From contig WHSY01000004.1 in assembly GCA_009379815.1 (NCBI GenBank), forward strand, positions 1 through 64,000: 64,000 nt of DNA. The letters are read 5' to 3'. Position 1 is the stretch's first letter. Every line of letters starts with the position of its first letter. Of the stretch, positions 5,730-40,715 are shown in pieces. Under the pieces are notes generated by a model, which made no database searches, was not told the DNA's origin, and worked only from the letters and a program-made list of their open reading frames with translations. The translations under genes and the position numbers were made by a program. The stretch is from Pseudonocardiaceae bacterium. Lineage in GTDB: Bacteria > Actinomycetota > Actinomycetes > Mycobacteriales > Pseudonocardiaceae.

Positions 5730-5748
5730 CCTGGCTCACACAGCACAC

Positions 5749-8834: not shown

Positions 8835-8841
8835 GACACGA

Positions 8842-11792: not shown

Positions 11793-11838
11793 CGAACGGG
11801 CGCGGGAGAGCAGCCGTCGGGCGGCGTGTGACGTGGGA

Positions 11839-12132: not shown

Positions 12133-12309
12133 TCGGCTGACTCCTTGCCGCCGGGCGGCACTGCCGCCGTACTCTTCGATCACCGGTGGCATATCCCGCC
12201 GCGGGCTGCCCGAAACATCGGGCGTGAGCGCGGTCCGGTGGTTTGTCCGCGCCCGGAGTGGGGAACCCGGTGCAGGCCGGGAGAGTTGTGCCGACCGCAG
12301 GGTGAGCCG

Positions 12310-13440: not shown

Positions 13441-13498
13441 CATCGACCGTGGTGGACCCGCGCGAGGTGACACCGGCCGGTTCGGGCACCATTCCGGC

Positions 13499-26680: not shown

Positions 26681-27280
26681 TCAGATCCAGCCCTCCTCCC
26701 AGGCCCGGCGGGCAGCTTCGTGACGGGTCGCGGCACCGAGCTTGGCCATCGCGGCGGAAAGGTAGTTGCGCACGGTCCCCGGTGCGAGGTGCACCGAGGC
26801 CGCGATGTCCGCCACGGGGTCACCGTCGCGGGCATGGCGCAGTACGTCGAGCTCCCGCGCGGTCAGCGGGCAGTCCTGCTCGGTGAGCGCGCTCGCCGCG
26901 ATCTCCGGATCGACGTAGCGCGCACCGCCGTGCACGTCCCGGATGATCGACGCCAGCCGGGAGGCGGGAGTGGTCTTCGGCACGAAGCCCCGCACCCCGG
27001 CGGCCAGCGCCCGGCGCAGCACCGCCGGGCGGGCGTGCCGGGTGACGATGACGACCGCGCCGCCGTGACCGCGTAGCCGCTCGGCTGCGGTGATGCCGTC
27101 GAGCTCGGGCATCTCGAGGTCCAGCACCGCGATGTCCGGCCGGTGCTCGGTGGCGAGGCGCACCGCCTCGGCTCCGTCGGCGGCCTGGGCCACCACCCGC
27201 AGGTCGGGCTCGAGGTCGAGCAGGGCGGCGAGCGCACCGCGGATGAGGTCCTCGTCGTCGGCGAGCAGCAGCCGGATCAC
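26681..27280 (-). CDS. NarL/DesR-like response regulator
   Basis: A 199-residue protein from ATG 27280. The receiver has acidic residues Asp8/Asp9, phospho-acceptor Asp54 in AVLDLEMPELDG, the Thr of VIVTRHARP and Lys of FVPKTTPASRL. The LuxR-type HTH follows: CPLTARELDVLRHARDGDPV, then VHLAPGTVRNYLSAAMAKLG and a C-terminal ATRHEAARRAWEEGWI, the DesR-like ending. It overlaps the histidine kinase gene (ATGA). The pair faces a divergent ABC exporter. I infer that it binds the palindrome ATGACGGATGTCAT at 28506-28519, which recurs within an exact 23-bp repeat at 43059-43081. Confidence 0.92.
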   Translation of the reverse strand: MIRLLLADDEDLIRGALAALLDLEPDLRVVAQAADGAEAVRLATEHRPDIAVLDLEMPELDGITAAERLRGHGGAVVIVTRHARPAVLRRALAAGVRGFVPKTTPASRLASIIRDVHGGARYVDPEIAASALTEQDCPLTARELDVLRHARDGDPVADIAASVHLAPGTVRNYLSAAMAKLGAATRHEAARRAWEEGWI

Positions 27281-28452
27281 GGGACTCGCCCCACCAGCCG
27301 GAAGCCACCGTCGCCCGTCGCGCCGGCCTCGACGTCACCGCCTGCCGCGGTGAAACGCTCCCGCAGCCCGGCCAGGCCCGACCCGCCGTCGAGGGCACTC
27401 GGCTCGGTGGCGCCGTCGTTGCAGACTCGGACGGTGTCCGCGTCGAGGTGCAGCGCGCAGCGGGTGGCCTGGCTGTGCCGCAGCACGTTGGTGGTGCCCT
27501 CGCGCACCAGCACACCGAACAGCGGCTGCCACGCCGCCGGGACGGCCCTGGTATCGCCGGTGACCTCGGCGTCGATACCGGCCGCGGCGAGGATCCGCAC
27601 CGCGTTGGACACCTCGGTGTGCAGGTCGGCCTGCCGGTAGCCCTGCACGATGTCGCGGGTCTCGGCGAGCGCGGTGCGCGCGATGGTGACCAGCTCGTCG
27701 GCCTGCGCCCGGGCGGCGGCGCCGTCGGCGTCGATCAACCGCGATACCAGCTCCCCCTTGAGCGCGATCACCTGCAGGTGGTGGCCCTGCAGGTCGTGCA
27801 AGTCGGCGGCGAAGCGCAGCCGCTCCCGGGTCACCGCGAGGTCCGCCCCAGCCTGCCGGGCCCGGTCCAGCCGCTGGGTCACCTCCCAGAACCAGATCTG
27901 GAAGACGTTCAACGCAGCGAACATGGGTACCGCGATGATCGCGATGAGCCCCTGGGCGACCGGGGCGGTCGGCGCGTCCACCACCACCGCGCCCACCACG
28001 CCCGCCGCGGCGGTCAGCACCGCGCCGACCGCCGTGACCGGCCACCGGAGCCGCCGCTGCACGCTGATCGCCAGCGCGCCCACCATGGCGGCCGGGACCA
28101 ACAACCACAATGCGAGATCCCAGACCGGGGCGGCGAGGAACCAGGCGAGGACCGCGGCCAGCAACCCCGCACCGGCCTCCACCGGGCGCCGCAGACCGTC
28201 GTGCGGCGCGCGCACCGCGTCGACGACCAGCCGAAGCTGCACCGCCGTGGCGACCACCAGCAGCACCGACAGCGCCACGGTGTGCAGCAGTGTCGGCGCC
28301 CCGACGTTGGCCAGCGCGAGCGCAGGCAGCAGCGCCGAACCCGCCGCCACGGTGACGAACGTCCACCACGTGTATCGCCGCATCGCCTCGACGCCAGGCC
28401 CGGGCGCGCGCTCACCGGGACCCGGGACGCCGGGCGCGGGCTCGTCGGTCAC
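27277..28452 (-). CDS. DesK-like sensor histidine kinase
   Basis: About 391 residues from GTG 28452 (GTG 28497 is a longer option). After a Pro/Gly-rich N-terminus there are about six membrane spans (residues 30-185). The HisKA_3 dimerisation domain has RERLRFAADLHDLQGHHLQV with phospho-acceptor His219, and the HATPase_c domain shows REGTTNVLRHSQAT (N box) and GGSGLAGLRERFTAAGG (G box), ending FRLVGRVP. The layout matches DesK-type kinases that sense membrane state or envelope-active compounds and usually control a neighbouring ABC exporter. It lies head-to-head with that exporter; the exporter's ATPase is interrupted by the inserted element, so in this cell the pathway's usual target is broken. 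Confidence 0.9.
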   Translation of the reverse strand: MTDEPAPGVPGPGERAPGPGVEAMRRYTWWTFVTVAAGSALLPALALANVGAPTLLHTVALSVLLVVATAVQLRLVVDAVRAPHDGLRRPVEAGAGLLAAVLAWFLAAPVWDLALWLLVPAAMVGALAISVQRRLRWPVTAVGAVLTAAAGVVGAVVVDAPTAPVAQGLIAIIAVPMFAALNVFQIWFWEVTQRLDRARQAGADLAVTRERLRFAADLHDLQGHHLQVIALKGELVSRLIDADGAAARAQADELVTIARTALAETRDIVQGYRQADLHTEVSNAVRILAAAGIDAEVTGDTRAVPAAWQPLFGVLVREGTTNVLRHSQATRCALHLDADTVRVCNDGATEPSALDGGSGLAGLRERFTAAGGDVEAGATGDGGFRLVGRVP

Positions 28453-28501
28453 GCCGTCCACTGTAGGCAGGATCGCGCGGTCCGCGGACCCTTCCACGGC
28501 G

Positions 28502-28524: not shown

Positions 28525-29160
28525 AGTCGTGCGATGCCACATCTCCTCCGGTGACGCCGCGGCCCTACCCGGGCCCGGGCCCGCCGGCCAGCATTGCCGC
28601 CATGACCACAACCGTGATTCAGGCGCAGGGCTTGCGCTGCCGCTACGGGGACTTCGAGGCGGTGCGGGGCATCGACCTCCGGGTCGGCGCGGGCGAGCTG
28701 TTCGCGCTGCTCGGCACGAACGGCGCCGGCAAGACCACCACCATGGAGGCGCTGGAGGGGCTGCGCGCCCCGAGTGCGGGCACCGTGCGGGTGCTCGGCC
28801 ACGACCCCGGTGCCGAGCGGCGCGCGGTCCGGTCGCGCGTCGGGATCATGTTGCAGGACAGCGGTTTCGTCGCGGAGCTGTCCGTCGTCGAGACGCTCGA
28901 CCTGTGGCGCCGGCTGCGCGGCCGCGGTGGTGACGTGGCGATGGCGCTGGACCGCGTCGAGCTCGGGCACCGCCGCGACGTCGCGGTCGGGCAGCTGTCC
29001 GGCGGCGAGCGGCGGCGCCTCGACCTGGCGCTGGCCGTGTTGTCCCGGCCGGACGTGCTCTTCCTCGACGAGCCGACCACCGGGCTCGACCCGGAGTCGC
29101 GTCACCACACCTGGGACGTGGTGCGCGAGCTGCTCGCCGACGGGGCGTCGGTGCTGCTGA

Positions 29161-29170
29161 CCACGCACTA
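29161..29170. other. attL core of the integrated element
   Basis: CCACGCACTA, identical to 39527-39536. It covers the codons for the H-loop Thr-His-Tyr of the ABC ATPase. Upstream sequence is host gene; downstream sequence (TCCGTTACACGG...) is element. The functional att site may include flanking arm sites that cannot be defined here. Confidence 0.85.
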
Positions 29171-29237
29171 TCCGTTACACGGTCTCCTGGCCCAACATGC
29201 TGTGACCAGGGGAAACGTGCCTTACGCGGCTATACGC

Positions 29238-29243
29238 TACACT
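29238..29243 (+). promoter_or_regulatory. Probable -10 element of a leaderless integrase transcript
   Basis: TACACT (fits TANNNT) ends eight bases before the GTG start of the integrase, the spacing seen for leaderless mRNAs in actinobacteria. No ribosome binding site precedes the GTG, which supports the reading. No clear -35 is visible. Confidence 0.45.
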
Positions 29244-29251
29244 AGCATGCC

Positions 29252-30154
29252 GTGCCTCGTCTAGATAACGCTGAACTGCGGTCCCTGCTCGACTCGTGGC
29301 TGCTGCGGCTCAAGGCCGAACGCAAGGCCACCAAGACCATCGCCTGCTACCGGGAAGGCGTCGAGCAGTACCTCACCTACTGCGCCCGGGTCGGCGCCGA
29401 CCCCGACCTGCACCCGAACACGGTGGCCGCGTTCACCTCCTCGGTGCTCGACGCCGGCAACTCCCCGTCCACCGCTCGACTGCGGCAACTGGCGGTTCGG
29501 CTGTTCTCCGCGTGGCTGGCTGCCGAGGACGAGATCGCCCGGGACGAGCTGCTCGGTGTGAAACCCCCGAAGCTCGACCAGCAGCTTGTGGTCGGGCTCG
29601 ACGACGACGAGGTCACCGCGCTGCTCAAGGCGTGCTCCGGGAAGAGCCTGGGTGATCGCCGCGACGCGGCTATCGTGCGGCTGTGCCTCGAAACCGGGGT
29701 GCGCATCGGTGAGGTGGTGGCGATGACCACCGCCGATGTGGACCTGGCGCGCGGGCTGGCCACCGTCCGCCGCGGCAAGGGCGGCAAGGCCCGCACTGTC
29801 GCGTTCGGACCGGCGACCGGTTCGGCCATCGACCGCTACATACGCGCCCGGCGCCGCCACGTCCTCGCTGACAGGCCCGCGCTGTGGCTGGGGGAGAAGG
29901 GCTACGGCTACTCGTATGAGGCCGCCTACCGGTCGCTGGGGCGCCGCGCTGCGGCTGCGGGCATCGCCGGGTTCCACCCGCACCGGCTGCGGCACGCGTT
30001 CGCCTCGAGATGGTTGGCGGCCGGGGGCAGCGAGCAGGGGCTGATGGTCACCGCCGGGTGGACACGGCGGGAGATGCTGGACCGCTACTCGCGGGACACG
30101 TCGGCGAAGCGGGCTCACGAGGAGGCACGCCGACTCAACCTCGGTGACCTCTGA
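29252..30154 (+). CDS. int: Tyrosine recombinase/integrase of the element
   Basis: A 300-residue XerC/D-like integrase from GTG 29252. Residues 5-95 form the SAM-like core-binding domain (ELRSLLDSWLLRLKAERKAT). The catalytic domain shows Arg151 (ETGVRIGEVVAMT), a Lys-rich beta-hairpin (VRRGKGGKARTV), His244-x-x-Arg247 (FHPHRLRHAFASRW), Trp270 at the position of the second His (TAGWTRREM) and nucleophile Tyr279 (LDRYSRD). It lacks the N-terminal arm-binding domain of lambda-type integrases, so it may be a simple, possibly bidirectional recombinase. It lies 80 bases inside attL and most likely catalyses integration into the ABC H-loop sequence. No separate excisionase gene was recognised. Confidence 0.95.
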   Translation: MPRLDNAELRSLLDSWLLRLKAERKATKTIACYREGVEQYLTYCARVGADPDLHPNTVAAFTSSVLDAGNSPSTARLRQLAVRLFSAWLAAEDEIARDELLGVKPPKLDQQLVVGLDDDEVTALLKACSGKSLGDRRDAAIVRLCLETGVRIGEVVAMTTADVDLARGLATVRRGKGGKARTVAFGPATGSAIDRYIRARRRHVLADRPALWLGEKGYGYSYEAAYRSLGRRAAAAGIAGFHPHRLRHAFASRWLAAGGSEQGLMVTAGWTRREMLDRYSRDTSAKRAHEEARRLNLGDL

Positions 30155-30356
30155 CCCGTCGGTCGTCGTGGACCCAGCGCGACGCTCAGGCAGGGTGAAA
30201 GTACTTGCATCCTGCTCTCGCCCGAGAACCTGGCCGACGTACTGACGCGATACGCCGGCTACCTTGCCGATCGTCGACCTGTAGCCGTCGGTCGTCGTGG
30301 ACCCGTCGGCGCACCATGCTATCGTGTTCACCGTTACAGAACGTGAGTAGCAGCTA
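30155..30356. promoter_or_regulatory. Regulatory region with 20-bp direct repeats and probable promoter
   Basis: CCGTCGGTCGTCGTGGACCC occurs at 30155-30174 and again at 30285-30304. The second copy overlaps a possible -35 (TGGACC, 30298-30303) placed 16 bases before TATCGT (30320-30325, TANNNT-like -10), which would drive the structured leader and the early genes. The repeats are candidate operators for a repressor or excisionase. On the minus strand one frame across this region reads IGKVAGVSRQYVGQVLGRE, HTH-like, but it has no stop or clear start and the flanking repeat is in the same frame, so I do not call a gene. Confidence 0.5.
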
Positions 30357-30534
30357 GGGACGGGACCCCGTACCCAAAGCCGAACGGCGTGGCCACGAAG
30401 CCACACCAACCGGGTACGTGCACTGTGGGGTTGGAGGACGTCCCGAACGGCGAAACACAGCCGGGCAGATCGGCTTCCGGTGAGGAATACCGCCGAGCAG
30501 CGACAACCGGCAGATCCGGTGTCGCCGCTCGGCG
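30357..30534 (+). ncRNA. Structured RNA leader upstream of the early genes
   Basis: Three successive folded domains are visible. Domain 1 is nested: GGGACG (30357-30362) with CGTCCC (30439-30444); ACCCC (30365-30369) with GGGGT (30427-30431); GTACCC (30370-30375) with GGGTAC (30412-30417); and inside, GTGGC (30389-30393) with GCCAC (30400-30404). Domain 2: AGCCG (30459-30463) with CGGCT (30471-30475), loop GGCAGAT. Domain 3: CGCCGAGC with GCTCGGCG (30491-30498/30527-30534), GCGAC with GTCGC, ACCGG with CCGGT, loop CAGAT. The string GGCAGATC occurs at both loop 2 and loop 3. All helices listed are perfect. It ends 25 bases before the first small gene and follows a probable promoter, so it is a cis leader or a separate small RNA. 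Confidence 0.6.
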
Positions 30535-30558
30535 TTCGTGTTCCCTGGAGCCGGAACC

Positions 30559-30819
30559 ATGGCACTGTCCCCCGAGCAGCGTTCGCAGCGCGCCCGCATC
30601 GCAGCCCTAGCCCGCTGGGCACACGAGGACCCCACCGCCAACGCCGCACGCGCCCAGGCCGGTCTGCGCCGCAAGTTCGAGAACGAGGTCGACCCCGACC
30701 GGGTGCTGCCCGAGGCGGAACGAGCCCGCCGCACCGAGTGCGCTTGGCGCGCCCATCTGGCACGGGCGGCGTTCGCCAGCGCGAAGGCCCGCCGAGCCAG
30801 GTCGGGGGCTGACGAATGA
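30559..30819 (+). CDS. Small Arg/Ala-rich element protein
   Basis: An 86-residue protein from ATG 30559 with CTGGAGCCGGA upstream. It is helical and strongly charged: LSPEQRSQRARIAALARWAH, then ANAARAQAGLRRKFENEVDP and LPEAERARRTECAWRAHLAR. The spacing and composition match small hypothetical proteins found next to integrase or replication genes in many actinobacterial prophages and integrative elements. DNA binding is plausible from the basic helices but no HTH is definable. It is the first gene of the overlapping early gene chain; its stop overlaps the next start (ATGA at 30816). Confidence 0.7.
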   Translation: MALSPEQRSQRARIAALARWAHEDPTANAARAQAGLRRKFENEVDPDRVLPEAERARRTECAWRAHLARAAFASAKARRARSGADE

Positions 30820-31100
30820 AACCCCGCCGCGGGCAGTGCGACGGGGTTCCAGAAAGCAGCCCATGCGAGGGGGACAGCCCCGATCCTACCGCGCCCGGGC
30901 GACAGCTGCGACGGCGTCGTGACACGTCCCGACGGCTCGAGCCGGTGGCCGGGCTGCAGCCGGACCCGTGGCGCCACCCGCAGCCGGACCGGTGGTCAGC
31001 CCGCGAGGTCGCCTCCTGGCGGCTGGCCTGGGTGCACCTCGCCGAGCTCGGGCTCGAGCCGATCGTTCCCGACAGCCTCTACACGAGGTCGGCGGCATGA
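30816..31100 (+). CDS. Small element protein of unknown function
   Basis: Up to 94 residues from ATG 30816, which overlaps the previous stop. The first 45 residues are basic and Pro-rich without family character; the C-terminal half (DPWRHPQPDRWSAREVASWR, then LAWVHLAELGLEPIVPDSLY) has the pattern of short hypothetical proteins in actinobacterial prophages. A GTG at 30944 would encode only that half and is a reasonable alternative start. AACCCCG (30819-30825) and CGGGGTT (30841-30847) form a 7-bp hairpin inside the 5' part, which favours the shorter start. The stop overlaps the next gene (ATGA at 31097). Confidence 0.5.
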   Translation: MKPRRGQCDGVPESSPCEGDSPDPTAPGRQLRRRRDTSRRLEPVAGLQPDPWRHPQPDRWSAREVASWRLAWVHLAELGLEPIVPDSLYTRSAA

Positions 31101-31981
31101 CCGAACCGGCTTACGAGGGAGGCCACGTAAAACGGCAGCGGGCGACCAAGGCCGAGATGCAGCACCGGTACGACGCGCTGTACGAGATCGTCAGGGAGAA
31201 CAAGCCCACCGGCATCAGGTTCTGCTACTACCGGGCCACCACCAGGGGTGTCGTGGCCAAGACCGACTCCGGGTACAACATGGTGCAGCGCGCCATCCTC
31301 GACATGCGCCGGTCCGGTCGCATCCCCTGGCACTGGGTCGTGGACTCAAGCCGCTGGATGCGGAAACCGGACACGTGGGGGTCGGTCGAGGAGCTGCTCG
31401 CCGACGCCGGCGCCTCCTACCGCCGGGCCTTGTGGCGCGACTCAGAGTCGGTCGTCGAGGTGTGGTGCGAGTCGGAGTCTGTGGCCGGGGTGCTGTACCC
31501 GACCACAGCGAAGTGGGACGTGCCGCTGCACCCGCTGAAGGGCCAGACGTCGGACTCGTTCGCGTGGGGCGCGGCGGTGCAGTACCGCGACGACCCCCGC
31601 CCGTTGACGATCTTCTACCTGGGTGACCACGACCCGGCCGGGTACGAGATCGAGACCAACCTGCACGCGAAGCTGGTCGAGTTCTCGGGCCGCGTCGACA
31701 TCGAGTTCCTGCGGCTCGCCGTCGACTTCGGCGATGTGCAGCAGCTCGGGCTCACCGGCACCACGCCGAAGAAGCCCAGCTACCGAGACAAGGTGACCGG
31801 CGGGTTGGTGCCGTGGCATGGGCCGGCCGTCGAGGTCGAGGCGGTCGACCCGCCGATGCTGCGGCGCTGGCTCGACGCCTGCATAAGCGACAAGGTCGAC
31901 CACGAGGCGCTGCGGCTGCTGCGGGTGGCCGAGGAGTCTGAGCGGGAGATCCTGCTTCGCATGGCTGGGGAGGCGTCGTGA
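31097..31981 (+). CDS. TOPRIM-like (topoisomerase VI A/Spo11-like) element protein
   Basis: A 294-residue protein from ATG 31097. The central FYLGDHDPAGYEIETNL is a TOPRIM-type D-x-D site (Asp-His-Asp) followed by the helix seen in topoisomerase VI A/Spo11-like proteins. The N-terminal part (RFCYYRATTRGVVAKTDSGY, MVQRAILDMRRSGRIPWHWV) looks like a winged-helix DNA-binding region with Tyr residues that could be nucleophiles. The C-terminal part has DYR..-type Lys/Arg segments and a helical end. Such proteins occur in actinobacterial prophages and elements without a tested function; roles in replication, DNA topology or anti-defence are possible. Translationally coupled on both sides. Confidence 0.6.
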   Translation: MTEPAYEGGHVKRQRATKAEMQHRYDALYEIVRENKPTGIRFCYYRATTRGVVAKTDSGYNMVQRAILDMRRSGRIPWHWVVDSSRWMRKPDTWGSVEELLADAGASYRRALWRDSESVVEVWCESESVAGVLYPTTAKWDVPLHPLKGQTSDSFAWGAAVQYRDDPRPLTIFYLGDHDPAGYEIETNLHAKLVEFSGRVDIEFLRLAVDFGDVQQLGLTGTTPKKPSYRDKVTGGLVPWHGPAVEVEAVDPPMLRRWLDACISDKVDHEALRLLRVAEESEREILLRMAGEAS

Positions 31982-32217
31982 AGCGCGACGGCGGGCCGAC
32001 CTTGTTCATCACGGTCGACCCGGAGCGTGGCCTCGCCTTGGTCCGCGGCAAGTCCGGCAAGCGCACCGTGCACCTCCTGGTGGCCGAGGAGGACATCACC
32101 TATAGCACCTCTCAGCGTGGCTGGGTGGTGCCCGCGTCCGCCGTGCCGGACATCGAAACCTTCGCGTCCTACTACGCGGAGGAACTGTGCGTGACGACGA
32201 AGCGGAAGCTGCCATGA
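31978..32217 (+). CDS. Small element protein
   Basis: A 79-residue protein starting at GTG 31978, overlapping the stop of the TOPRIM-like gene. It begins KRDGGPTLFITVDPERGLAL, then VRGKSGKRTVHLLVAEEDIT, WVVPASAVPDIETFASYY and a basic end TTKRKLP. It is probably a small beta-rich domain. No family is recognised. Its stop overlaps the next start (ATGA at 32214), so it is part of the early/replication unit. Confidence 0.6.
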   Translation: MKRDGGPTLFITVDPERGLALVRGKSGKRTVHLLVAEEDITYSTSQRGWVVPASAVPDIETFASYYAEELCVTTKRKLP

Positions 32218-32858
32218 CCTGGACCAAGCTAGGCGACGAGTTCCCCGACGACTGCGAGCGCGCCGAGCTGTCAGACGCGGCCGTCCGCACCCACGTCGAG
32301 GCGCTGTGCTGGTCCAACCGGCTCCTCCTCGACGGGCACATCCCGATGCGCCACCTCGGCCGGTTCGCGTTCAGCCAAGACGCCGACCGCGCCGTCAGTG
32401 AACTACTGGCCGCCGGCTGGTGGGGCGAGACGGAGGACGGCTACCTGCTGATGCACGACATCACCGAGCAGCGCAGCCGCGAGCAGGTGCTGGCATCGAG
32501 AGAGACAGCGAAGGGGAGGCAGGCCCGATGGAGAGGCAAGCACCGCGTGGAACCGGATAACGCCGTTACTAACGCCGTTACGAGACGGGGACGTAACGCC
32601 GTTACCCGGGACGGGACGGGACAGGACAGGTCTGGGTCTAAACCCAGCCAGGAAGAGAAGGAAGTACACGTGCGCGAGGACGCGATCACCGAGGCCGAAC
32701 CACCGACGGAGGAGACGTTGTCACCACCTCGTCCAGATGCATGTTCGGGCTGCGGGAAGGTCGGCTCCTCCCTCACGGCCGGGGGTCTGTGCCGCCGCTG
32801 CCACGGCGAGGCGGTGTCCCGCTCCTACAACCTCGACAACGGCAGGAGCTCGGCGTGA
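32214..32858 (+). CDS. Replication-initiator-like protein with internal iterons
   Basis: A 214-residue protein from ATG 32214. The N-terminal domain (TWTKLGDEFPDDCERAELSD, AAVRTHVEALCWSNRLLLDG, IPMRHLGRFAFSQDADRAVS, LLAAGWWGETEDGYLLMHD) is the winged-helix pattern of phage replication proteins of the lambda-O/DnaT-like kind common in actinophages. The linker contains ITEQRSREQVLASRETAKGR and then a repeated NAVT peptide (NAVTNAVTRRGRNAVTR) encoded by DNA iterons (32558-32605). The C-terminus is a zinc ribbon, CSGCGKVGSSLTAGGLCRRC. I infer that it binds its own gene as the element's replication origin, as lambda O does. It lies within the translationally coupled chain. Confidence 0.7.
   Translation: MTWTKLGDEFPDDCERAELSDAAVRTHVEALCWSNRLLLDGHIPMRHLGRFAFSQDADRAVSELLAAGWWGETEDGYLLMHDITEQRSREQVLASRETAKGRQARWRGKHRVEPDNAVTNAVTRRGRNAVTRDGTGQDRSGSKPSQEEKEVHVREDAITEAEPPTEETLSPPRPDACSGCGKVGSSLTAGGLCRRCHGEAVSRSYNLDNGRSSA
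32558..32605. repeat. Three iterons inside the replication gene
   Basis: TAACGCCGTTAC occurs at 32558-32569, directly repeated at 32570-32581, and again at 32594-32605. With its flanking base the third copy is the dyad GTAACGCCGTTAC. The array encodes the repeated NAVT peptide. Tandem dyad repeats inside an initiator gene are the arrangement of a lambda-type origin. Confidence 0.75.
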
Positions 32859-33445
32859 GACCGCACCTCACCCCGTGCGCGGGCTGCGGGCAGCTGGTGC
32901 CCACGTGCACCCTCGACGGCCAACGCCGGTGCACCACCTGCGCACGCAGGCCGCGGACGATGGAGTTGGGATACGTATCCCTTTTACCGGATGAGGCAAG
33001 ATTGCCGATATCGGTAAAGTCCTTCGTTAGATCCGCGACTGTCTGCTGCGGTACCCCTTCCAACTGTCAACGACTTGACAGTCCAGCCGGAGCGGATCAC
33101 TGGCCCGTGCACGCCATCCACAGGCACACCCACCCTGTGGACAACACCTGTGCACAACCCCTGTGGACAACCGAGGGAGACACGTGGACACCGAGCAGCG
33201 CATCGACGCCTGGACCTTCACCCCACCCGGACCAGGCCGAGCCGACGAACGCGTGTGGTCGCGATGCGCCGTCAACGGCTGCGCCTGGAGAGTCCCCGCA
33301 CACCCCGACGGCGTCGCGCTGCTGTGCCGCGGACACCGCGAAGATGCCTACGACACGAGGCCGAGCTACCGCAAGGTCGACGAGGTCACCCACCTCAAGC
33401 TCCGCAAACTGCCCGGTACGCGACGCGGTGACGGTGCGGCGGTGA
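32855..33445 (+). CDS. Zinc-ribbon element protein (C-terminal extent uncertain)
   Basis: GTG 32855 overlaps the stop of the replication gene. The first ~40 residues, RPHLTPCAGCGQLVPTCTL then DGQRRCTTCARRPR, form a treble-clef or zinc-ribbon with two CxxC pairs and are convincing. Formally the frame stays open to 33445 (196 residues), but from about 32960 it runs through a lower-GC region full of dyads and DnaA-box-like repeats and then overlaps the next gene by 260 bases, so much of the C-terminal part may be non-coding run-through. A mutated or missed stop is possible. Confidence 0.4.
   Translation: MRPHLTPCAGCGQLVPTCTLDGQRRCTTCARRPRTMELGYVSLLPDEARLPISVKSFVRSATVCCGTPSNCQRLDSPAGADHWPVHAIHRHTHPVDNTCAQPLWTTEGDTWTPSSASTPGPSPHPDQAEPTNACGRDAPSTAAPGESPHTPTASRCCAADTAKMPTTRGRATARSTRSPTSSSANCPVRDAVTVRR
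32968..33082. promoter_or_regulatory. Cluster of operator-like dyads
   Basis: Three separate dyads lie within 115 bases of relatively AT-rich sequence: the perfect palindrome GGGATACGTATCCC (32968-32981); TTGCCGATATCGGTAA (33002-33017), 14 of 16 bases symmetric; and ACTGTCAA-CGAC-TTGACAGT (33063-33082), perfect 8-bp arms. TTTACCG (32983-32989) and CGGTAAA (33012-33018) pair as well. This density suggests repressor or initiator binding and a promoter for the rightward genes. Confidence 0.6.
33114..33170. promoter_or_regulatory. DnaA-box-like cluster, candidate replication origin
   Basis: TGTGGACAA, the complement of the actinobacterial DnaA box TTGTCCACA, is present at 33136-33144 and 33162-33170; TGTGCACAA (33149-33157) differs by one base, and CCATCCACA (33114-33122) matches TTATCCACA at seven of nine on the other strand. 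Spacing is regular (13 bases between successive boxes). It lies next to the dyad cluster and 530 bases from the iterons. Confidence 0.6.
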
Positions 33446-33453
33446 CGGAGTGA
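33184..33453 (+). CDS. Small Cys/His element protein
   Basis: An 89-residue protein from GTG 33184, with GAGGGAGACAC directly upstream. It reads DTEQRIDAWTFTPPGPGRAD, then ERVWSRCAVNGCAWRVPAHP and GVALLCRGHREDAY. The CxxxxC...CxxH arrangement suggests a small zinc-binding fold. No function is known. It begins right after the DnaA-box cluster, so it is the first gene of the rightward unit behind the putative origin. The T-rich GTTTTTTATT at about 33482-33491 after its stop may be part of a terminator, though no strong stem precedes it. Confidence 0.6.
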   Translation: MDTEQRIDAWTFTPPGPGRADERVWSRCAVNGCAWRVPAHPDGVALLCRGHREDAYDTRPSYRKVDEVTHLKLRKLPGTRRGDGAAVTE

Positions 33454-33582
33454 CGGTGCGATGCGGTCCGATGACACAACGGGTTTTTTATTCAGCAGCC
33501 TCGGACGACCGCGCAATCCCCCGTTTCTCTCCCTACGTTGAATTGCGGCGGTTTCCCCTTCTCTCTGTGACAGGTGGTAGCG

Positions 33583-34011
33583 ATGAGTGACCTAGGCCTT
33601 GCGCGGGCGCTGAGTCGGCTGCAGGCCGACGAGCTGCCGTCGGTGCAGGGCGAGGAGCGGGCGGCACTGCTGAGCGCTCTCAGCAACGGTTGGGCGGACC
33701 TGGCGGCTGTGAACGATGCGGTTGCCGAGTTAGCGGGCACGGTCCGGATGATCGGCCGCTGTCCCTTCCCTGCCGGCCGTGCTGTGACGGCCGCGCTCGA
33801 GGCGTGTTCGCCGTCGGACCGGCGGGTAGTGATGCTGTCAACGGCCGAGGTGCGGGACCGCATGGTGGGTGTGGGTGAACACCGGCTCGCGGCGGCGTGG
33901 GCCGAGCTCGCAGCGTTGGCCGGCGAGGTGATAGCGGCGGAGGGGGAGCTGCTGCGGGCGCTCGAGGACGACGGCGCGTCGGGCCCGGGTTTTGTCGGGA
34001 CGGACCGGTAG
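33583..34011 (+). CDS. Helical element protein of unknown function
   Basis: A 142-residue protein from ATG 33583 behind AGGTGG. It is mostly alpha-helical and Ala/Leu/Glu-rich: SDLGLARALSRLQADELPSV, GEERAALLSALSNGWADLAA, AEVRDRMVGVGEHRLAAAWA, ELAALAGEVIAAEGELLRAL. No motif of terminase small subunits, proteases or portal proteins is present. Its place just before the capsid gene would fit an assembly or scaffold helper, but this is only position-based. A 180-base gap with a hairpin (34088-34109) separates it from the capsid gene. Confidence 0.6.
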   Translation: MSDLGLARALSRLQADELPSVQGEERAALLSALSNGWADLAAVNDAVAELAGTVRMIGRCPFPAGRAVTAALEACSPSDRRVVMLSTAEVRDRMVGVGEHRLAAAWAELAALAGEVIAAEGELLRALEDDGASGPGFVGTDR

Positions 34012-34087
34012 GATGATCGGTGCGACGGTGGAGCGCAGGTCGACAACCACGCTGCCCGTTGACGGGTGAGTTGAACGCGTAGGGACC

Positions 34088-34109
34088 GCTGACGAAGATC
34101 GTCGTCAGC
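34088..34109. terminator. Hairpin between small gene and capsid gene
   Basis: GCTGACGA (34088-34095) pairs perfectly with TCGTCAGC (34102-34109) around a six-base loop, in the gap before the capsid gene. It may be a terminator or a leader element of the capsid transcript; no T-tract follows. Confidence 0.4.
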
Positions 34110-34191
34110 CGCAGGCACCGTAGCTGTCGGTGCGGGAAACCCCGGGCTCCCTCTAAGACCCCCATTGTGCTGATCTTGGAGTGGAGTAGAC

Positions 34192-35487
34192 GTGAACCCG
34201 GATTTCGCTGATCTTGCGTCGAGGCTGCGCGCGGAGCGTGAGGTGTTGTCGCAGGCCATCGACCACATGAGGACGCCGGAGGGCGCGCCGCGCCCCGACC
34301 TGTCGACGCAGCAGCGTGCACTGTGGGAAGCATCAGTCATGCGCCGCACGGTCGTCGATGAGCGACTTGCGGACCTTCCGGAGCATGTTGCTGCTGCGGG
34401 CGGGGTGGAGCAGCGCAAGGACGATGTGGACGAGCGGCTCGGCGAGCTCGACGCCGCCGATCGGCGGCAGGCCTCCGCGGAGGAGGCGTTCCGGCAGCTG
34501 CACGCCACGCCGCGGGTGGCTGGTCGCGGCTCCCGTGGTCGGGACGAGGGGTTCGCGGCGTTCGCGCGCGGTGAGGAAGGGCACCGGGCCACGTTCAACG
34601 TGGACCTGTCCGAGGCCGCGGAGGCGCGTTCCCTGACCGTGGGCACCGGCAGCGAGGGTGGAGACACCGCCCCGGCTTCGTTCGTGGCCAGGTTGTACGA
34701 GCACATGATCGAGACTTCGGGGGTGCGGCAGGCCGGGCCGACGGTGTTGACCACCTCCGGTGGTGAGGACTTGGCGGTGCCGAAAACCACCGGGCATGGG
34801 ACGGCGGCGATCGTTTCCGAAGGGGCGACGATCGGCGAGGACGACCCGGAGTTCGACACGGTGACCCTGGGCAGCTTCAAGTACGGCAGCCTGATCAAGG
34901 TCACGAACGAGCTTTTGACGGACACGTCGGTGGATCTTGTGGGGTATCTGGCCCGCTCGTTCGGGCGTGCGGTCGGGAACCTCAGTGGCGAGCACTTCGT
35001 GTCCGGGTCGGGCTCCGGGGAACCTGAGGGGCTGCTGGGTGCGTCCACGTTGGGTGTGACCGCGGCGGCGACGGACACTGTCACCGCCGACGAGGTGATC
35101 GACATGTTCTTCACGGTTATCCCCGAGTACCGGGGTCGGGGGACGTGGCTGATGACCGACAGCATGTGGGCGAAGATCCGCAAGTTGAAGGACGCGGACG
35201 ACAACTACCTGGTGGGTCCGATCGCCGACGGTGGTGTGTTGCGGCTGTTGGGCCGGCCGGTGGTGATCGACCCGTATGTGGATGAGCCCGCGGCGGACGC
35301 TAAAACGATCCTGTTCGGCGACTTCTCGGCGTACTACATCCGGCAGGTGTCCGGGTTGCGGTTCGAACGGTCCGACGATGTCGGGTTCGACACGGACACC
35401 GTGTGGTTCCGGGTGTTGCACCGGCTCGACGGCCGTCTGGTGGACGGCTCCGGGGCGATCAAGCACCTCGCGCAGGCCGCTGCCTGA
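34192..35487 (+). CDS. HK97-family phage major capsid protein
   Basis: A 431-residue protein from GTG 34192 (TTGGAGTGGAG upstream). Residues 1-100 are charged and coiled-coil (LRAEREVLSQAIDHM, RKDDVDERLGELDAADRRQA), equivalent to the HK97 delta/scaffold domain. The capsid core starts near FAAFARGEEG; ETSGVRQAGPTVLTTSGGED, EGATIGEDDPEFDTVTLGSF, KYGSLIKVTNELLTDTSVDL, GRAVGNLSGEHFVSGSGSGE and GRGTWLMTDSMWAKIRKLKD are the family's conserved blocks. No separate protease gene accompanies it. A 267-base gap with no recognisable gene follows before the tape-measure gene; the head-tail connector and tail-tube genes normally found there are absent. Confidence 0.95.
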   Translation: MNPDFADLASRLRAEREVLSQAIDHMRTPEGAPRPDLSTQQRALWEASVMRRTVVDERLADLPEHVAAAGGVEQRKDDVDERLGELDAADRRQASAEEAFRQLHATPRVAGRGSRGRDEGFAAFARGEEGHRATFNVDLSEAAEARSLTVGTGSEGGDTAPASFVARLYEHMIETSGVRQAGPTVLTTSGGEDLAVPKTTGHGTAAIVSEGATIGEDDPEFDTVTLGSFKYGSLIKVTNELLTDTSVDLVGYLARSFGRAVGNLSGEHFVSGSGSGEPEGLLGASTLGVTAAATDTVTADEVIDMFFTVIPEYRGRGTWLMTDSMWAKIRKLKDADDNYLVGPIADGGVLRLLGRPVVIDPYVDEPAADAKTILFGDFSAYYIRQVSGLRFERSDDVGFDTDTVWFRVLHRLDGRLVDGSGAIKHLAQAAA

Positions 35488-35754
35488 CAGTGATGGTCGT
35501 GGGGCGTCAACCTCACCCGCCGGGGGCTTTGGTTCCTTTCACCCCGGATCGGAAGGAAGGCCGGCACTCAAGGGTCCCGCCGGGCCCGCCGGCCTGCGCC
35601 CCGCCGAACGTGGTGTGCGGGCCGGGACCTATCCAAGCGGTCGCTTCGGGCCCCGGTCTGCGCACCTCGAGCGGGCACCCCGGCCGGGGGCGGTTGGTCC
35701 TTCCCGCCGGTCGGGGCTGCCTGCACCCCTTCGTGACTAGCTGAGAGGGCGAGC

Positions 35755-38700
35755 ATGGCCAAGACGTTGAGGGTCAACTTCATTGGCGACACCTCGGACC
35801 TTGAGAAGTCGGTCGACCAGGGCACCGCGAAGATCCGCTCGTTCGGGCAGAAGGTCGTCAAGATCGCTGCCGCCGCGGGTGCCGCCGCCGGTGTGGCTGT
35901 GGGCGCCGCCCTGACGAACGCGATCAACGTGGAGGGCGCCAACGCGAAACTCGCCGGTCAGCTCGGTTTGGTCGGGAGGGACGCGAAGCGCGCCGGGGCT
36001 GTCGCCGGACGGGTGTACTCCCAGGGCTGGGGGGAGAATCTGGGCGCGGTGCACGACGCGGTCCGCGGGCTCGTGCAGAACGCCAACGTCTCAGTCAAGG
36101 CGGTCAACCTCGAGCCGTTGGTCAGGAACGTGACGGTGCTGACCGACACGTTCGGGGTGTCGGCGGGGGAGATCACCACCGCCATCGGCGGGGTGGGTCG
36201 CGCGTTCGGCACCAAGCCGCAGAAGGCGCTGGACTCGGTCACTAAGCTGCTGCAGACCGGTGGGGACCGGGCCACGGACCTGGGCGACACGCTCACCGAG
36301 TACCCGCAGCGCATCAAAACACTCGGTCTGTCCGGGCAGCAGTTCTTCGGGCTGATCAACCAAGGTTTGGCGGCCGGTGGCCGCAACACCGACGTGTTCG
36401 GCGACAGCTTGGCGGAGCTCAACATCCGCATCTCGTCCGGTGAGGCAGCCAAGGGCATGCAGATGTTGGGGATCAACGCGTCGCAGGCCACCGCCGCTAT
36501 CTCGGCGGGGGGGCCGGGGGCGCAGGCCGCCCTGGACCAGATTTTCGACAAGCTGCGGGCGATTCAGGACCCCACCCGCCGCGCTCGGGTCGCCACCGAG
36601 CTGTTCGGCAGCGTGTGGGAGAACGCCGGGGAGGCGTTGTTCGCGTTGGACCCGTCGGAGGCGGTCGCGTCCCTCGGGAACGTGGAGGGCGCCTCCAACA
36701 GGCTCACCGAGTCGCAGAAGAACGCGGCGCAGCAGATCGAGGCGTTCAAGCGGTCGGCGATCAGTTTGGCGACGCAGGCGATCGGCGGGTTCCTGCTGCC
36801 GAAGGTCACCGAGCTGGCGGGATTCTTGAACCGCAACCTGAAGCCCACCATCGACGCGGTGGTGCGGGCGTTCCGGGAGAACCGGACGGCGGTTGAGGCA
36901 ACAGTGTCGGTGCTCGGGGGGATGCTGACCGCGCTGCTGGCCATGAAGGTCATCGGTTCGGTGATCGCCGGTGTGAAGGGGCTACGGCTCGCTGTCATCG
37001 CGTTGAACGCGGCCATGCGGGCGAACGTGATCGGCATTGTGATCACCGCGCTGGCGGGGCTGGTCGGCGGGCTCATCTACGCCTACAAGAACTCCGAGAC
37101 ATTCCGCAACATCGTGAACGCGGTGTTCCGGGCGGTCGCCGCGGTGGCCACATGGTTGTGGAACAACGTGCTCAAGCCGGTGTTCAACTTCATCGGGGGG
37201 GTGTTCCGCGCCAACGCGGACCGGATCGGGTGGGCGTGGCGCAACGTCATCAAACCGGCGTGGGATGCGCTGGTGGCCGTCCTACAGTTCTTGTGGAACA
37301 ACGTGCTTCGCCCGATCTTCCAGCGCATCGGGGACCGGTGGAACGCGATGGGGGTCGGGATCCGGGCGGTGTGGCGCAACGTGATCCGACCCGCCTGGGA
37401 CGCGCTGGTGGGCGGTTTGCGGTGGGTGCGCGACCGGTTCCGGGAGATCGTGGACTGGGTGGGCCGTAAGTGGGACCAGCTGCGCGGGCTGCTCGCCCGG
37501 CCGATCAACGCGGTGATCCGCACCGTGTTCAACAACGGGATTCTGCGGGCCTGGAACTGGGCCGCGGGGCTGCTGCCCGGGGTCGACAAGGCCAACAAGG
37601 TCCCGGAGTTCCGGTGGGCTCGTGGCGGTATCCACGAGCAGCATCAGGCGCAGATCACCAAGGCTGGGGGTCCGCTGCGGATCTGGAGTGAGCCGGAAAC
37701 CGCCGGTGAGGCCTACATTCCGCTAGCGGCGAGCAAGCGGCAGCGGTCCACGGGGATCCTGGCGGAGGTCGCCGACCGGTTCGGGCTCGATGTGCTGCCC
37801 CGCCACCTGGCCACGTTCGCGTTCGGTGGTGTCGTCGACCGGGCCCTGGCGCTGGCCGCCCGCCCATCCGGTGCGCGGGTGTCCTCGGCGTACCGGCCCG
37901 GCGACAGCGGCTATCACGGGCGGGGGAAGGCCGTCGACCTGGTCGGGAACCTGCCCGGCATCAACCGCTATCTCGCGAAGGGCTGGCCCAACTCGACGCA
38001 GCTGATCTACACCCCGGGCACGAACCTGCTCAACGGGCGGCCGCACCGCTACAACGCGGCCACCCGAGCCGACCACTTCGACCATGTGCATTGGGCGCAG
38101 GAGAACCTCGCGATGGTCGGGAACCCGGCGCTTCGTGCGATCGGCGGCGGGCTCCGTGGCGCGTTCAACTTCGTCCGCGACCAGATCCGCGGCGCGTTCG
38201 AGCGCATCACCAACCCGCTGATAGACGGGCTGCCGAAGGCGCCGCCCGCGTTCAAGGACATGGGCCGCGGTGTGGCCACCAAGTCCCGCGACTCGCTGCT
38301 GAACTGGATGCTGGGGGAGGCCGACAAGGTCGACGGGGCATCGGATCCGGGCGGGGCCGGGGTGCAGCGCTGGCGGCCGCTGGTGCAGCAGATGCTGCGC
38401 CTCGTGGGTCAGCCGCTGGGGCACACCGGGATCACGCTGCGGCGCATGAACCAGGAGTCCGGCGGGAACCCGCGGGCGATCAACAACTGGGATGTGAACG
38501 CCCGCCGGGGCACCCCGTCTAAGGGGCTGATGCAGGTCATCGACCCGACGTTCCGGGCGTTCCGGCACCCTAGGTTGCCTAACAATGTGTGGCACCCGGG
38601 GGCGAATGTGGCGGCGTCCATGCGCTACGCCCTGTCCCGCTACGGCAGCCTGCCGTCCGCGTACAACCGGCCGGGCGGGTACGCCGACGGTGGGATTGTC

Positions 38701-38910
38701 ACCGGCCCGACGATGGCGACGCTCGGTGAGGACGGCGCCGAGGCGATCGTTCCGCTGGGCAAGCCGCGCCGCGCCCGTGAAGTGATGGACCAGGCCGGGC
38801 TCGGCGGCGTCACGAAGCTCTACCAGGTGAACATCAACGCCACCTCGGTCGACGGGGAGGACGTGCGCAACGCGATCCGGCGCATGGAAATGCTCGACGG
38901 CGCCTACTGA
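35755..38910 (+). CDS. Phage tail tape-measure protein with peptidoglycan-hydrolase modules
   Basis: A 1051-residue protein from ATG 35755 behind GAGAGGGCGAGC. The N-terminus (KTLRVNFIGDTSDLEKSVDQ and an Ala-rich span) and the GxF-x-TxPQKALDSVT-like region are typical of TP901-type tape measures. Hydrophobic segments near 380-450 may be membrane-inserting. Trp-rich repeats (LWNNVLKPVFNFIGGVF, AWRNVIKPAWDAL and similar) span about 460-570. Around 705-780 a D,D-peptidase-like module has SSAYRPGDSGYHGRGKAVDL and DHFDHVHWAQ. Around 880-975 an SLT lytic-transglycosylase module has RRMNQESGGNPRAINNWDVN and SKGLMQVIDPTF. At about 1.5 angstrom per residue it would specify a tail near 150 nm, yet no other tail gene is present. 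Confidence 0.92.
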   Translation: MAKTLRVNFIGDTSDLEKSVDQGTAKIRSFGQKVVKIAAAAGAAAGVAVGAALTNAINVEGANAKLAGQLGLVGRDAKRAGAVAGRVYSQGWGENLGAVHDAVRGLVQNANVSVKAVNLEPLVRNVTVLTDTFGVSAGEITTAIGGVGRAFGTKPQKALDSVTKLLQTGGDRATDLGDTLTEYPQRIKTLGLSGQQFFGLINQGLAAGGRNTDVFGDSLAELNIRISSGEAAKGMQMLGINASQATAAISAGGPGAQAALDQIFDKLRAIQDPTRRARVATELFGSVWENAGEALFALDPSEAVASLGNVEGASNRLTESQKNAAQQIEAFKRSAISLATQAIGGFLLPKVTELAGFLNRNLKPTIDAVVRAFRENRTAVEATVSVLGGMLTALLAMKVIGSVIAGVKGLRLAVIALNAAMRANVIGIVITALAGLVGGLIYAYKNSETFRNIVNAVFRAVAAVATWLWNNVLKPVFNFIGGVFRANADRIGWAWRNVIKPAWDALVAVLQFLWNNVLRPIFQRIGDRWNAMGVGIRAVWRNVIRPAWDALVGGLRWVRDRFREIVDWVGRKWDQLRGLLARPINAVIRTVFNNGILRAWNWAAGLLPGVDKANKVPEFRWARGGIHEQHQAQITKAGGPLRIWSEPETAGEAYIPLAASKRQRSTGILAEVADRFGLDVLPRHLATFAFGGVVDRALALAARPSGARVSSAYRPGDSGYHGRGKAVDLVGNLPGINRYLAKGWPNSTQLIYTPGTNLLNGRPHRYNAATRADHFDHVHWAQENLAMVGNPALRAIGGGLRGAFNFVRDQIRGAFERITNPLIDGLPKAPPAFKDMGRGVATKSRDSLLNWMLGEADKVDGASDPGGAGVQRWRPLVQQMLRLVGQPLGHTGITLRRMNQESGGNPRAINNWDVNARRGTPSKGLMQVIDPTFRAFRHPRLPNNVWHPGANVAASMRYALSRYGSLPSAYNRPGGYADGGIVTGPTMATLGEDGAEAIVPLGKPRRAREVMDQAGLGGVTKLYQVNINATSVDGEDVRNAIRRMEMLDGAY

Positions 38911-39137
38911 GCCGCAGTCTGCGCGGCCGTCGACAGGCAGTCCGCCAACTCCGTGGCCTCGTGGCCGGTCAGCTCCGCAGCGGTGTCGGTGGCGCCGTGG
39001 TGCAGCAGCAGAACCCTCCGGTTCGTGCCGATCACCAGCAGGGTGCAGTACCCGCCGCCGCCGAACAACTTCGCGGTGATGCCGCTGCGGTAGCGCTCGC
39101 GCTCACCCTCGGGCAGCGACCCGGTCACCGGGACCAT
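38904..39137 (-). CDS. Small protein at the element's right end
   Basis: A 77-residue protein if started at ATG 39137 (VPVTGSLPEGERERYRSGIT); a GTG at 39188 would add 17 residues. The body ITAKLFGGGGYCTLLVIGTN then RRVLLLHHGATDTAAELTGH and a helical C-terminus looks like a small alpha/beta fold. It overlaps the upstream minus-strand gene by 13 bases and its end overlaps the tape-measure stop. Genes opposite to the structural genes at the end of a prophage are often expressed in the lysogen (moron-like); no function can be assigned. Confidence 0.5.
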   Translation of the reverse strand: MVPVTGSLPEGERERYRSGITAKLFGGGGYCTLLVIGTNRRVLLLHHGATDTAAELTGHEATELADCLSTAAQTAAQ

Positions 39138-39379
39138 TCCCGCAGGTGAATCGGTGGCGGTCCCGGGACCCCCACCGAAGGCGACCACTGTGCGGCGGCA
39201 CCGGCGGGCAGCACCGCACCCGCTGAGTCGCCTCCTGACAGCCGCAGCAGGCGTTCCAGGTCTGCTGCCACCTGCCGCCGCTGCGGTGCCGTGAGCCTCG
39301 AGCTGACGACTAGCAGGACGTGGTCGCCGACGCGGACACCGACACCGTCCTCGACCATGGTGTCTGACACGCTGTGCAT
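39125..39379 (-). CDS. Small protein, first gene of the right-end minus-strand pair
   Basis: An 84-residue protein from ATG 39379; GACGAGG lies about nine bases upstream. It reads HSVSDTMVEDGVGVRVGDHV, LLVVSSRLTAPQRRQVAADL and ERLLRLSGGDSAG, then a Pro-rich C-terminus. No family recognised. It is followed by an overlapping second small gene, so the two form a unit read towards the tape-measure gene. Position just inside attR suggests lysogenic expression, perhaps superinfection immunity or a host-interaction role (inference only). Confidence 0.5.
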   Translation of the reverse strand: MHSVSDTMVEDGVGVRVGDHVLLVVSSRLTAPQRRQVAADLERLLRLSGGDSAGAVLPAGAAAQWSPSVGVPGPPPIHLREWSR

Positions 39380-39526
39380 GGGCGGGACCTCGTCTCCCGT
39401 CAAGGCCCCGGGTCGGTGGTGTATACCGGCCTTGGGGCCGCCTACTGGTAGGGGATAGTGCACGACCGACGGTGTGTCACCACCTGCACAAACCACACTC
39501 GCGCATGCCGTGGTGAGCGGTTCTAG

Positions 39527-39536
39527 CCACGCACTA
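39527..39536. other. attR core of the integrated element
   Basis: CCACGCACTA, identical to attL. To its right the ABC ATPase frame resumes (CTGGAGGAGGCC, Leu-Glu-Glu-Ala). Just left, the element sequence contains CACCACCTGCAC and GCCGTGGTGAG, complementary blocks that may be recombinase arm or accessory sites. Confidence 0.85.
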
Positions 39537-39891
39537 CCTGGAGGAGGCCGAGGCACTCGCCGACCGGCTGGCGATCATGCACGAGGGCCGGATCGCGGTC
39601 AGCGGCACCGTCGCCGAGGTGGTCGGCGCCCAGCCCGCGCGGATCTCCTTCGAGCTCGGGCGGCCCGCTCCACCGCTGCCGGTGCTGTCCGCCGCGGCGC
39701 AGCACGACGGTGCCGCGGTGGCGCTGCGCAGCACGGCGCTGCAGCAGGACCTGACCACCTTGCTGGCGTGGGCGCAGCACCACGACGTGGCGCTGCGCCG
39801 CCTGGTCGCACGGCACGCCTCGCTCGACGACGTCTTCCGCGCGGTCCGCACCCAAGGGCGCTCCGACGAACGACAGGAGGTTGCGGCATGA
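39527..39891 (+). pseudogene. ABC exporter ATPase, C-terminal part
   Basis: The frame through attR encodes THYLEEAEALADRLAIMHEG, RIAVSGTVAEVVGAQPARIS and a final regulatory region ending SLDDVFRAVRTQGRSDERQE. This is the normal continuation of an ABC-2 exporter ATPase after the H-loop, in frame with the N-terminal half at 28602-29171. Inside the element the frame has a stop at 39514-39516, so no fusion is made; an internal ATG at 39577 could start only a non-functional fragment. Its stop overlaps the permease start (ATGA at 39888), so the insertion may also reduce permease translation. Confidence 0.9.
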
Positions 39892-40715
39892 TCACCCCCG
39901 AGACGACTACCACCGACACGATCACCACCGACACGATCACCACCGACACGATCACCACCGACACGATCAGCCCGTTGCGCGGTGCCGTGACTCTCGCGGG
40001 CGCGGAGGCCCGGCTGCTGGTGCGCAATCGCGTGGTCGCCACCACCGCCCTGGTCATGCCGCTGGCACTCGGCGGCCTTCTCGCGCTCAACGCGGACGGC
40101 CTGACCCGCGGGGGCTGGGCGGGGGCGGCGGCGCTGCAGATCATCGCGATGCTCGGGCTCGCGGTCTACGCCGGGGCCACCACGTCGCTGACCGCACGCC
40201 GCCAGGCGCTGTACCTCAAGCGGTTGCGCAGCGGGGAGCTGCCCGATGCCGCCATCCTCGCCGGCCTGCTCGGCCCGTTCCTCGCACTCGGGGCGCTGCA
40301 GGCCATCCTGCTGCTCGGGATCCTGGTGGCGCTCGGCGCACCGCCGCCTACGAACGTGGCGCTGCTGGCGCTCGCGGTGCTCGGCGGGTCCGTGGTGTGC
40401 TGCGTGGCCGCCGCGGTCACCAGCGGCCTGACCCGCTCGGCGGAGACCGCGCAGCTGACGACGACCCCGTTGTTCGTCGCGATCATCGCCGGCGGCATCT
40501 GGGTGATCACCACCGCGCCGGCGGAGGTGACGGCGCGGATGCTCGCCACCCCCGGCGGCGCGCTCGCGGACCTGGTGCGCCGCGGCTACAGCGGCGACGG
40601 CCCGTTGCTCGACCAGCTCTCCGGCGCCCTGCCGGCAATCGGGTTCCTGGCCGCATGGGTCGTGATCGGCGTGGTCGCCGCCACCCGCACCTTCCGCTGG
40701 GACCCCCGCCGCTGA
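39888..40715 (+). CDS. ABC-2-type exporter permease
   Basis: A 275-residue membrane protein from ATG 39888, overlapping the ATPase stop. The cytoplasmic N-terminus is a Thr/Asp/Ile repeat (TTDTITTDTITTDTI) encoded by a 15-bp DNA repeat. Six hydrophobic spans follow, beginning with VVATTALVMPLALGGLLAL; ARRQALYLKRLRSGELPDAA between spans 2 and 3 is the typical cytoplasmic coupling loop with L-K-R-L-R-x-G. It should form a homodimeric exporter with the split ATPase, under control of the divergent DesK/DesR-like pair. Substrate unknown; drug or peptide efflux is usual for this arrangement. Confidence 0.85.
   Translation: MITPETTTTDTITTDTITTDTITTDTISPLRGAVTLAGAEARLLVRNRVVATTALVMPLALGGLLALNADGLTRGGWAGAAALQIIAMLGLAVYAGATTSLTARRQALYLKRLRSGELPDAAILAGLLGPFLALGALQAILLLGILVALGAPPPTNVALLALAVLGGSVVCCVAAAVTSGLTRSAETAQLTTTPLFVAIIAGGIWVITTAPAEVTARMLATPGGALADLVRRGYSGDGPLLDQLSGALPAIGFLAAWVVIGVVAATRTFRWDPRR
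39911..39970 (+). repeat. In-frame 15-bp tandem repeat
   Basis: CACCGACACGATCAC is repeated exactly three times and a fourth time with the last base changed (39911-39925, 39926-39940, 39941-39955, 39956-39970). It encodes Thr-Asp-Thr-Ile-Thr units in the N-terminus of the ABC permease and could vary in copy number without shifting the frame. Confidence 0.9.

Follow-up and report, generated by a model that had tools for sequence, protein, structure and literature searches.

A window of 64,000 nucleotides (64 kb) of Pseudonocardiaceae bacterium DNA (assembly GCA_009379815.1, contig WHSY01000004.1, positions 1 to 64,000) carries the ATPase gene of an ATP-binding cassette (ABC) exporter, which is split by a phage-like integrated element of 10,366 bp at 29171-39536 (equally, 29161-39526). 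The window contains exactly two copies of the 10-bp sequence CCACGCACTA, referred to here as the attachment (att) core: one lies at each junction (29161-29170 and 39527-39536), in forward orientation in both cases. The identity ends at 10 bp, and the next base differs on either side. When 28602-29170 is joined to 39537-39891 with one core copy kept, a single open frame of 307 amino acids is obtained, reading ...VLLTTHYLEEAEALADR..., and neither half of the ATPase is interrupted by stops. The N-terminal open reading frame (ORF) consists of host sequence through the H-loop histidine, followed by element sequence up to a stop codon at 29262-29264. The core spans codons T187-T188-H189-Y190, counted from 28602, and encodes TTHY; therefore, the codon for the H-loop histidine is present at both junctions. 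The chance of a 10-bp identity at one given junction is ~5e-6 at the given base composition. With 11 copies genome-wide, vs. 12 for a reversed-pattern control, the core 10-mer is not rare, and its significance lies in its presence at both junctions. An earlier note on this DNA had proposed that a mobile element splits the exporter ATPase at the H-loop and that one copy of the core restores the frame; both proposals are borne out by the exact core at the two junctions, the tyrosine integrase gene inside and the 307-aa frame, and the boundaries are slightly corrected to 29171-39536.

The restored protein has matches in 175 of 297 host-family genomes at E <= 1e-70, own genome included, although some of these may be paralogues. 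The comparison of orthologues covered the 29 loci that rank next below the own gene (L052-L080), for which the fetched stretches were short. In all 29 loci, the ATPase match runs unbroken across the H-loop; the sensor kinase and the permease adjoin it in 29/29 and the sequence of the response regulator in 25/29, and the core CCACGCACTA is found in 22/29 and the longer CCACGCACTACCTGGAGGA in 18/29. Judging from these loci, the ATPase gene was whole before the insertion. Uninterrupted orthologues had been named in the earlier note as one check on its proposal, and their complete absence as something that would count against it; they are present, with kinase and permease synteny. Its description of an exporter ATPase gene beside a two-component system, entered site-specifically by a mobile element, is likewise upheld. 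The best NCBIfam match of the restored protein is the DrrA exporter subfamily (TIGR01188), at 224 bits against a cut-off of 312, and the ATPase is regarded as related to DrrA and not as a member. Near the start of the permease gene, a short tandem repeat (39906-39968, units like ACCACCGACACGATC) codes for a Thr-Asp-Thr-Ile-Thr repeat. The features of the locus and of the element are listed in Table 1.

Table 1. Coordinates of the split exporter locus and of the integrated element in the 64-kb window
Feature	Position	Strand	Basis or remark
Response regulator (NarL/UhpA-like)	26681..27280	-	UhpA model is best NCBIfam match (109 bits; under cut-off 258); adjoins ATPase in 25/29 loci
Sensor histidine kinase, divergent from ATPase	27277..28497	-	Pfam HisKA_3 46.9 bits, cut-off 24; in 29/29 orthologous loci
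N-terminal ABC ATPase part	28602..29264	+	Pfam ABC_tran 102.7 bits; host to 29170, foreign residues after
Left att core CCACGCACTA (attL)	29161..29170	+	Sequence
Integrated element	29171..39536	+	10,366 bp, 68.7% GC
Candidate arm-type site GCATGCCGTG	29245..29254	+	Exact 10-bp direct repeat of 39503-39512; overlaps integrase start codon
Tyrosine integrase, 300 aa	29252..30154	+	Pfam Phage_integrase 95.8 bits; start within truncated ATPase ORF
Small gene, after integrase in most relatives	30538..30819	+	tblastn matches in 12 other compared loci; no Pfam match
Topoisomerase-like protein	30968..31981 (start may be 31097)	+	phrog_6247
Small ORF, no function assigned	31978..32217	+	Pfam and PHROG scans
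Replication-initiation-like protein	32187..32858	+	phrog_2447
Small ORF	33163..33453	+	74% identical to ORF on own-genome contig C299
ORF, no function assigned	33574..34011	+	Pfam and PHROG scans
HK97-type major capsid protein	34192..35487	+	Pfam Phage_capsid 229 bits; TIGR01554 279 bits, cut-off 27.5
Tape-measure protein with SLT domain	35755..38910	+	Pfam PhageMin_Tail and SLT; many PHROG tape-measure families
Small ORF	38904..39188	-	Relative on own-genome contig C466
ORF spanning attR	39125..39556	-	Relatives on own-genome contigs C71 and C299; beyond 39536 host DNA
Candidate arm-type site GCATGCCGTG	39503..39512	+	Exact 10-bp direct repeat of 29245-29254
Right att core CCACGCACTA (attR)	39527..39536	+	Sequence
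C-terminal ABC ATPase part	39577..39891	+	First ATG; ATPase sequence already resumes at core
ABC-2 type permease	39888..40715	+	Pfam ABC2_membrane_3 30.9 bits, just below cut-off 31.6; in 29/29 orthologous loci

The integrase of the element adjoins attL, and residues R151, K176, H244, R247, W270 and Y279, which we take to be its catalytic residues, are present and invariant in an alignment of 10 sequences. Two features of a tyrosine-integrase integrative element are hence found together, namely, a conserved recombinase next to att and identical end cores that restore the host sequence. Upstream of the integrase, GCATGCCG or GCAAGCCG is found in 9 of 15 relatives examined as well. A motif near AGTCAAGATATC, which may be a promoter, lies directly before the integrase start in many relatives (e.g., L016, L017 and L018) and is absent from the window. 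Between 28400 and 30400, neither a promoter nor a terminator was detected in a scan for both.

The GC content of the element is lower than that of its flanks (72.0% and 71.4%). Among the element proteins scanned for Pfam and PHROG matches, no terminase, portal, head protease or transposase was recognised, nor were satellite regulators of the type found in phage-inducible chromosomal islands (PICIs); no excision factor was recognised either, and several small element ORFs have no match at all. The element is likened to phiRv/PICI-type candidates because capsid and tape-measure genes are present and neither a terminase nor a portal was recognised. It qualifies as a candidate PICI of the phiRv kind under the working definition of PMC10654092, which asks for a major capsid gene together with integration genes in one small region that is not a complete phage. 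A PICI in the strict sense would, in addition, be induced and mobilised by a helper phage.

Integrases of this type are found in 13 of 297 host-family genomes at E <= 1e-60 (own included) and in 12 of 397 genomes of the order at E <= 1e-70 (own and one earlier genome included), and a GTDB scan returned four loci, of which two more were usable. The sites of 25 loci besides the window were examined. In 17 of them, the element is at the 3′ end of the gene for the principal sigma factor, which ends in ...LRDYLD, once in ...LRDYLE, before the stop codon. Two further sites are at riboflavin synthase, one at a glycerophosphodiester phosphodiesterase (GDPD), one at an acyl-CoA-synthetase-like gene and one at a gene ending in ...GGYLD and a stop, and three loci have no assigned site. 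These target gene names are read from the sequences and are to be taken as presumptive. All 22 assigned sites are at gene ends, five of them at 3′ ends of genes other than the sigma factor gene, and an ABC gene is the site in none of the 25. The suggestion in the earlier note that the integrase selects the ABC H-loop is thus not sustained, and the same integrase beside other ABC H-loops, also sought, was not found among these 25 loci. More distant integrases were excluded from the tally (L011, 39%; L012, 27%; and L003-L008 of the own genome, 29-36%). No tRNA target was found in 20 of 21 loci scanned; the one tRNA, a tRNA-Met, is in the distant locus L011. Among the viral-contig loci, the first 19 of 38 gave no ABC match, and four of these 19 have the RDYLD/E-stop motif, several of the 19 being cut short by a contig edge; a viral-contig scan with a single integrase query gave no match, and a capsid scan of viral contigs gave one short contig.

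Six relatives could be mapped at both ends (L040, L043, L009, L039, L010 and L013), and these elements are 7.1-9.8 kb long with the integrase beside attL. The sigma-factor elements L040, L043 and L009 have exact cores of 20-22 bp, and the GDPD element L039 has one of 31 bp; in L010 and L013, whose right ends were placed with 6 and 4 mismatches, respectively, the core measures 15 and 11 bp. A head-protease match is found in L039, L040 and L043 and a capsid match in L039 and L040, with L009, L010 and L013 scanned only in part; the home-made gene caller used for relatives missed known genes, and hence no gene absence in them is claimed. L013 is an element of the own genome and occupies its sigma-factor site; this element, on contig C388, also encodes a Prim-Pol protein and a DUF3631 protein, and close to its other end it has a second integrase in reversed orientation.

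The remaining question is why the H-loop was entered. In a tree of 26 integrases, the window integrase is the sister of the GDPD-site integrase (support 100/99), and the phage-side att sequence (attP) of the window element agrees with that of the GDPD lineage at 23 of 40 positions, a score reached by 1 of 20,000 random windows. The host-side att sequences (attB) of the ABC gene and the sigma factor gene both contain ACTACCTGGA, in register of the crossover. Among the 10 genomic core places possible as attB, the sole one that continues with CCTGGA like the sigma-factor site is the one used; the core is also at nine other genomic places, two of which translate, in our reading, as H-loops of other ATPases. 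Resemblance at the DNA level to the usual att sites of the family would be a sufficient explanation for the site, so that selection of a catalytic motif need not be assumed. The GDPD site of the sister lineage was sought in the own genome, where even the top hit is weak (E 1.5e-7) and the att sequence is missing from the single C-terminal match; a search for further sister-lineage members in the genus of its host found an integrase in two of seven genomes, both already known.

Taken together, the most probable explanation, to which we assign a probability of roughly 0.8, is that a phage-derived element entered the exporter gene at a look-alike site by means of its integrase, that the exporter was thereby inactivated and that excision is mechanically plausible. 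Briefly, a 10.4-kb phiRv/PICI-like element with integrase, replication-type, capsid and tape-measure genes and no recognised packaging genes would have been placed into the conserved ATPase gene by integrase-mediated recombination across the 10-bp core. The integrase family normally uses 3′ ends of housekeeping genes, mostly that of the principal sigma factor, and the lineage in the window may have used a look-alike sequence within the ATPase, either through retargeting or through off-target integration. The exporter is probably inactive while the element is integrated because the element cannot rebuild the ATPase, and precise excision with restoration of the exporter is mechanically plausible because the integrase, both att cores and the candidate arm sites look intact.

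Several points weigh against this explanation. No recombination was observed, and the assembly shows the filled site only. The tree leaves the window/GDPD pair unplaced relative to the sigma-factor integrases. The ABC and sigma-factor attB sequences match at 15 of 29 bases, which 143 of 20,000 random windows reach, and the window attP matches the sigma-factor site at only nine positions; since the former match is moderate and the latter low, the attB resemblance is suggestive only, and codon usage may account for part of it because both sequences code for Tyr-Leu-acidic. Furthermore, an unused genomic place carries 16 of 19 attP-core bases (<=3 mismatches; reversed control, 0), and the site preference rests on one case because there is no second element at an ABC site. 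The 16/19 place, by eye in a glutamate-racemase-like gene, was not counted in favour of a native site, as about one such chance match is estimated.

The earlier note had further considered that the insertion might serve as a reversible off-switch for the exporter. Put as active lysogeny, the element would be kept since its controlled excision turns the exporter on when needed. The exactly restored frame and the stop-free halves would fit this proposal, as would the intact integrase residues, cores and arm repeats, the two-component system adjoining the exporter operon and the integrase start at 29252 within the truncated ATPase ORF. A recent accident, however, predicts intact halves equally well, the 22 assigned sites of relatives are at gene ends and not in gene interiors, no excision factor was recognised among the proteins scanned, the assembly gives no sign of an empty site, and a second independent case did not turn up; the switch is therefore considered unlikely. 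A narrower form of it is that the exporter promoter drives the integrase. Because the integrase start codon lies within the truncated ATPase ORF, exporter induction would also raise the integrase, and an inducing signal might thus excise the element and rebuild the ATPase. If this were true, the efflux operon would amount to a gene that mends itself with a phage satellite as its gate, the control having been gained by a changed integration site; we consider this improbable to a still greater degree.

With regard to its origin, the element might not belong to a satellite family but be a prophage in decay, from which the packaging genes and most of the tail genes have gone, which is compatible with integration at a look-alike site and which we regard as a real though minor possibility. 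Its capsid and tape-measure genes are adjacent, without the genes normally between them, no terminase or portal was recognised among the proteins scanned, and a head protease is found in the relatives L039, L040 and L043 and was not recognised in the window element. By contrast, the six mapped relatives that carry this integrase type measure 7.1-9.8 kb as well, which suggests that small size is the normal state, and the capsid and tape-measure ORFs are long and open. A foreign segment flanked by a short direct repeat could also be produced by a transposon, the 10-bp repeat being its target-site duplication; this is scarcely credible in view of the lack of a recognised transposase among the proteins scanned, the arm repeats and the integrase adjoining attL as in relatives with cores of 11-31 bp at defined gene ends. 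An artefact joining phage and host sequence is conceivable in a draft assembly of 733 contigs in which the core 10-mer occurs 11 times, and yet it is very improbable: both junctions are inside one contig of 107,767 bases, the ATPase halves fit orthologues end to end and the junction agrees with the integrase-att layout of the family. Moreover, an overlap of 10 bases is shorter than those used by assemblers.

Other phage-like segments were observed in the own genome. On contig C466 (L035), two parts of a UPF0102 (YraN-type) gene (1492-1764, profile positions 1-37; 16137-16349, positions 36-80) are separated by a small element (~1492-16349 in all) that encodes a serine recombinase, a 1231-aa tape-measure relative and a topoisomerase-like protein. 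On contig C299 (L037), a serine-recombinase element at ~3613-12900, which includes genes for a head protease and a capsid protein, is next to a comEC-like gene (12985-14433), whose missing end might be a 55-aa piece at 3383-3550 that has no Pfam match. The 3.1-kb contig C71 (L038) carries a capsid gene and a relative of the window ORF at 39125-39556, and for that reason probably represents another related element.

With respect to known systems, the window element fits the working definition applied to phiRv1/phiRv2 and the candidate mycobacterial PICIs, namely, integration machinery plus a capsid gene; the tyrosine-integrase examples drawn in that source are at tRNA-gene sites, whereas the window element is inside a protein-coding gene and has a tape-measure gene in addition (PMC10654092). 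Helper-embedded PICIs, whose integrases form one other tyrosine-integrase clade, show the same pattern: they interrupt genes that are restored on excision, subclades keep their site, new sites arise by subclade, integration can be off target, and rebuilding of the target gene goes with long blocks of identity (PMC10111431). Those satellites reside in late genes of Gram-negative prophages, whereas the window element, known from sequence, resides in a chromosomal exporter gene. Prophage switches such as phiSa3 in hlb and the mutS/yabG insertions interrupt genes in the same manner and excision can restore them; excision or regulation is reported to have been studied there, whereas excision of the window element is a prediction. 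ABC transporter genes are named among frequently observed prophage integration sites, although the passage concerned gives neither a position within the gene nor an H-loop, which is where the window insertion lies (PMC7371120). Interruption of genes by satellites with restoration on excision (PMC10111431) and ABC transporter genes as prophage sites (PMC7371120) are already known, and no report of a sigma-factor 3′-end site for such elements or of an H-loop site was found in the literature searched. Related tyrosine integrases occur in Streptomyces phage Kromp (52%) and in Mycobacterium phages such as SirDuracell (45%), although phages of this kind are full-length (58-76 kb), compared with 10,366 bp for the window element.

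The locus illustrates how an integrase family may move its site: most members are at the 3′ ends of housekeeping genes, one branch is in the interior of a coding sequence, and the att sequences of the usual site and of the new one are both readable. It further provides a test case for phiRv-like satellites outside mycobacteria, and, should excision prove to be regulated, a satellite would be controlling an efflux pump.
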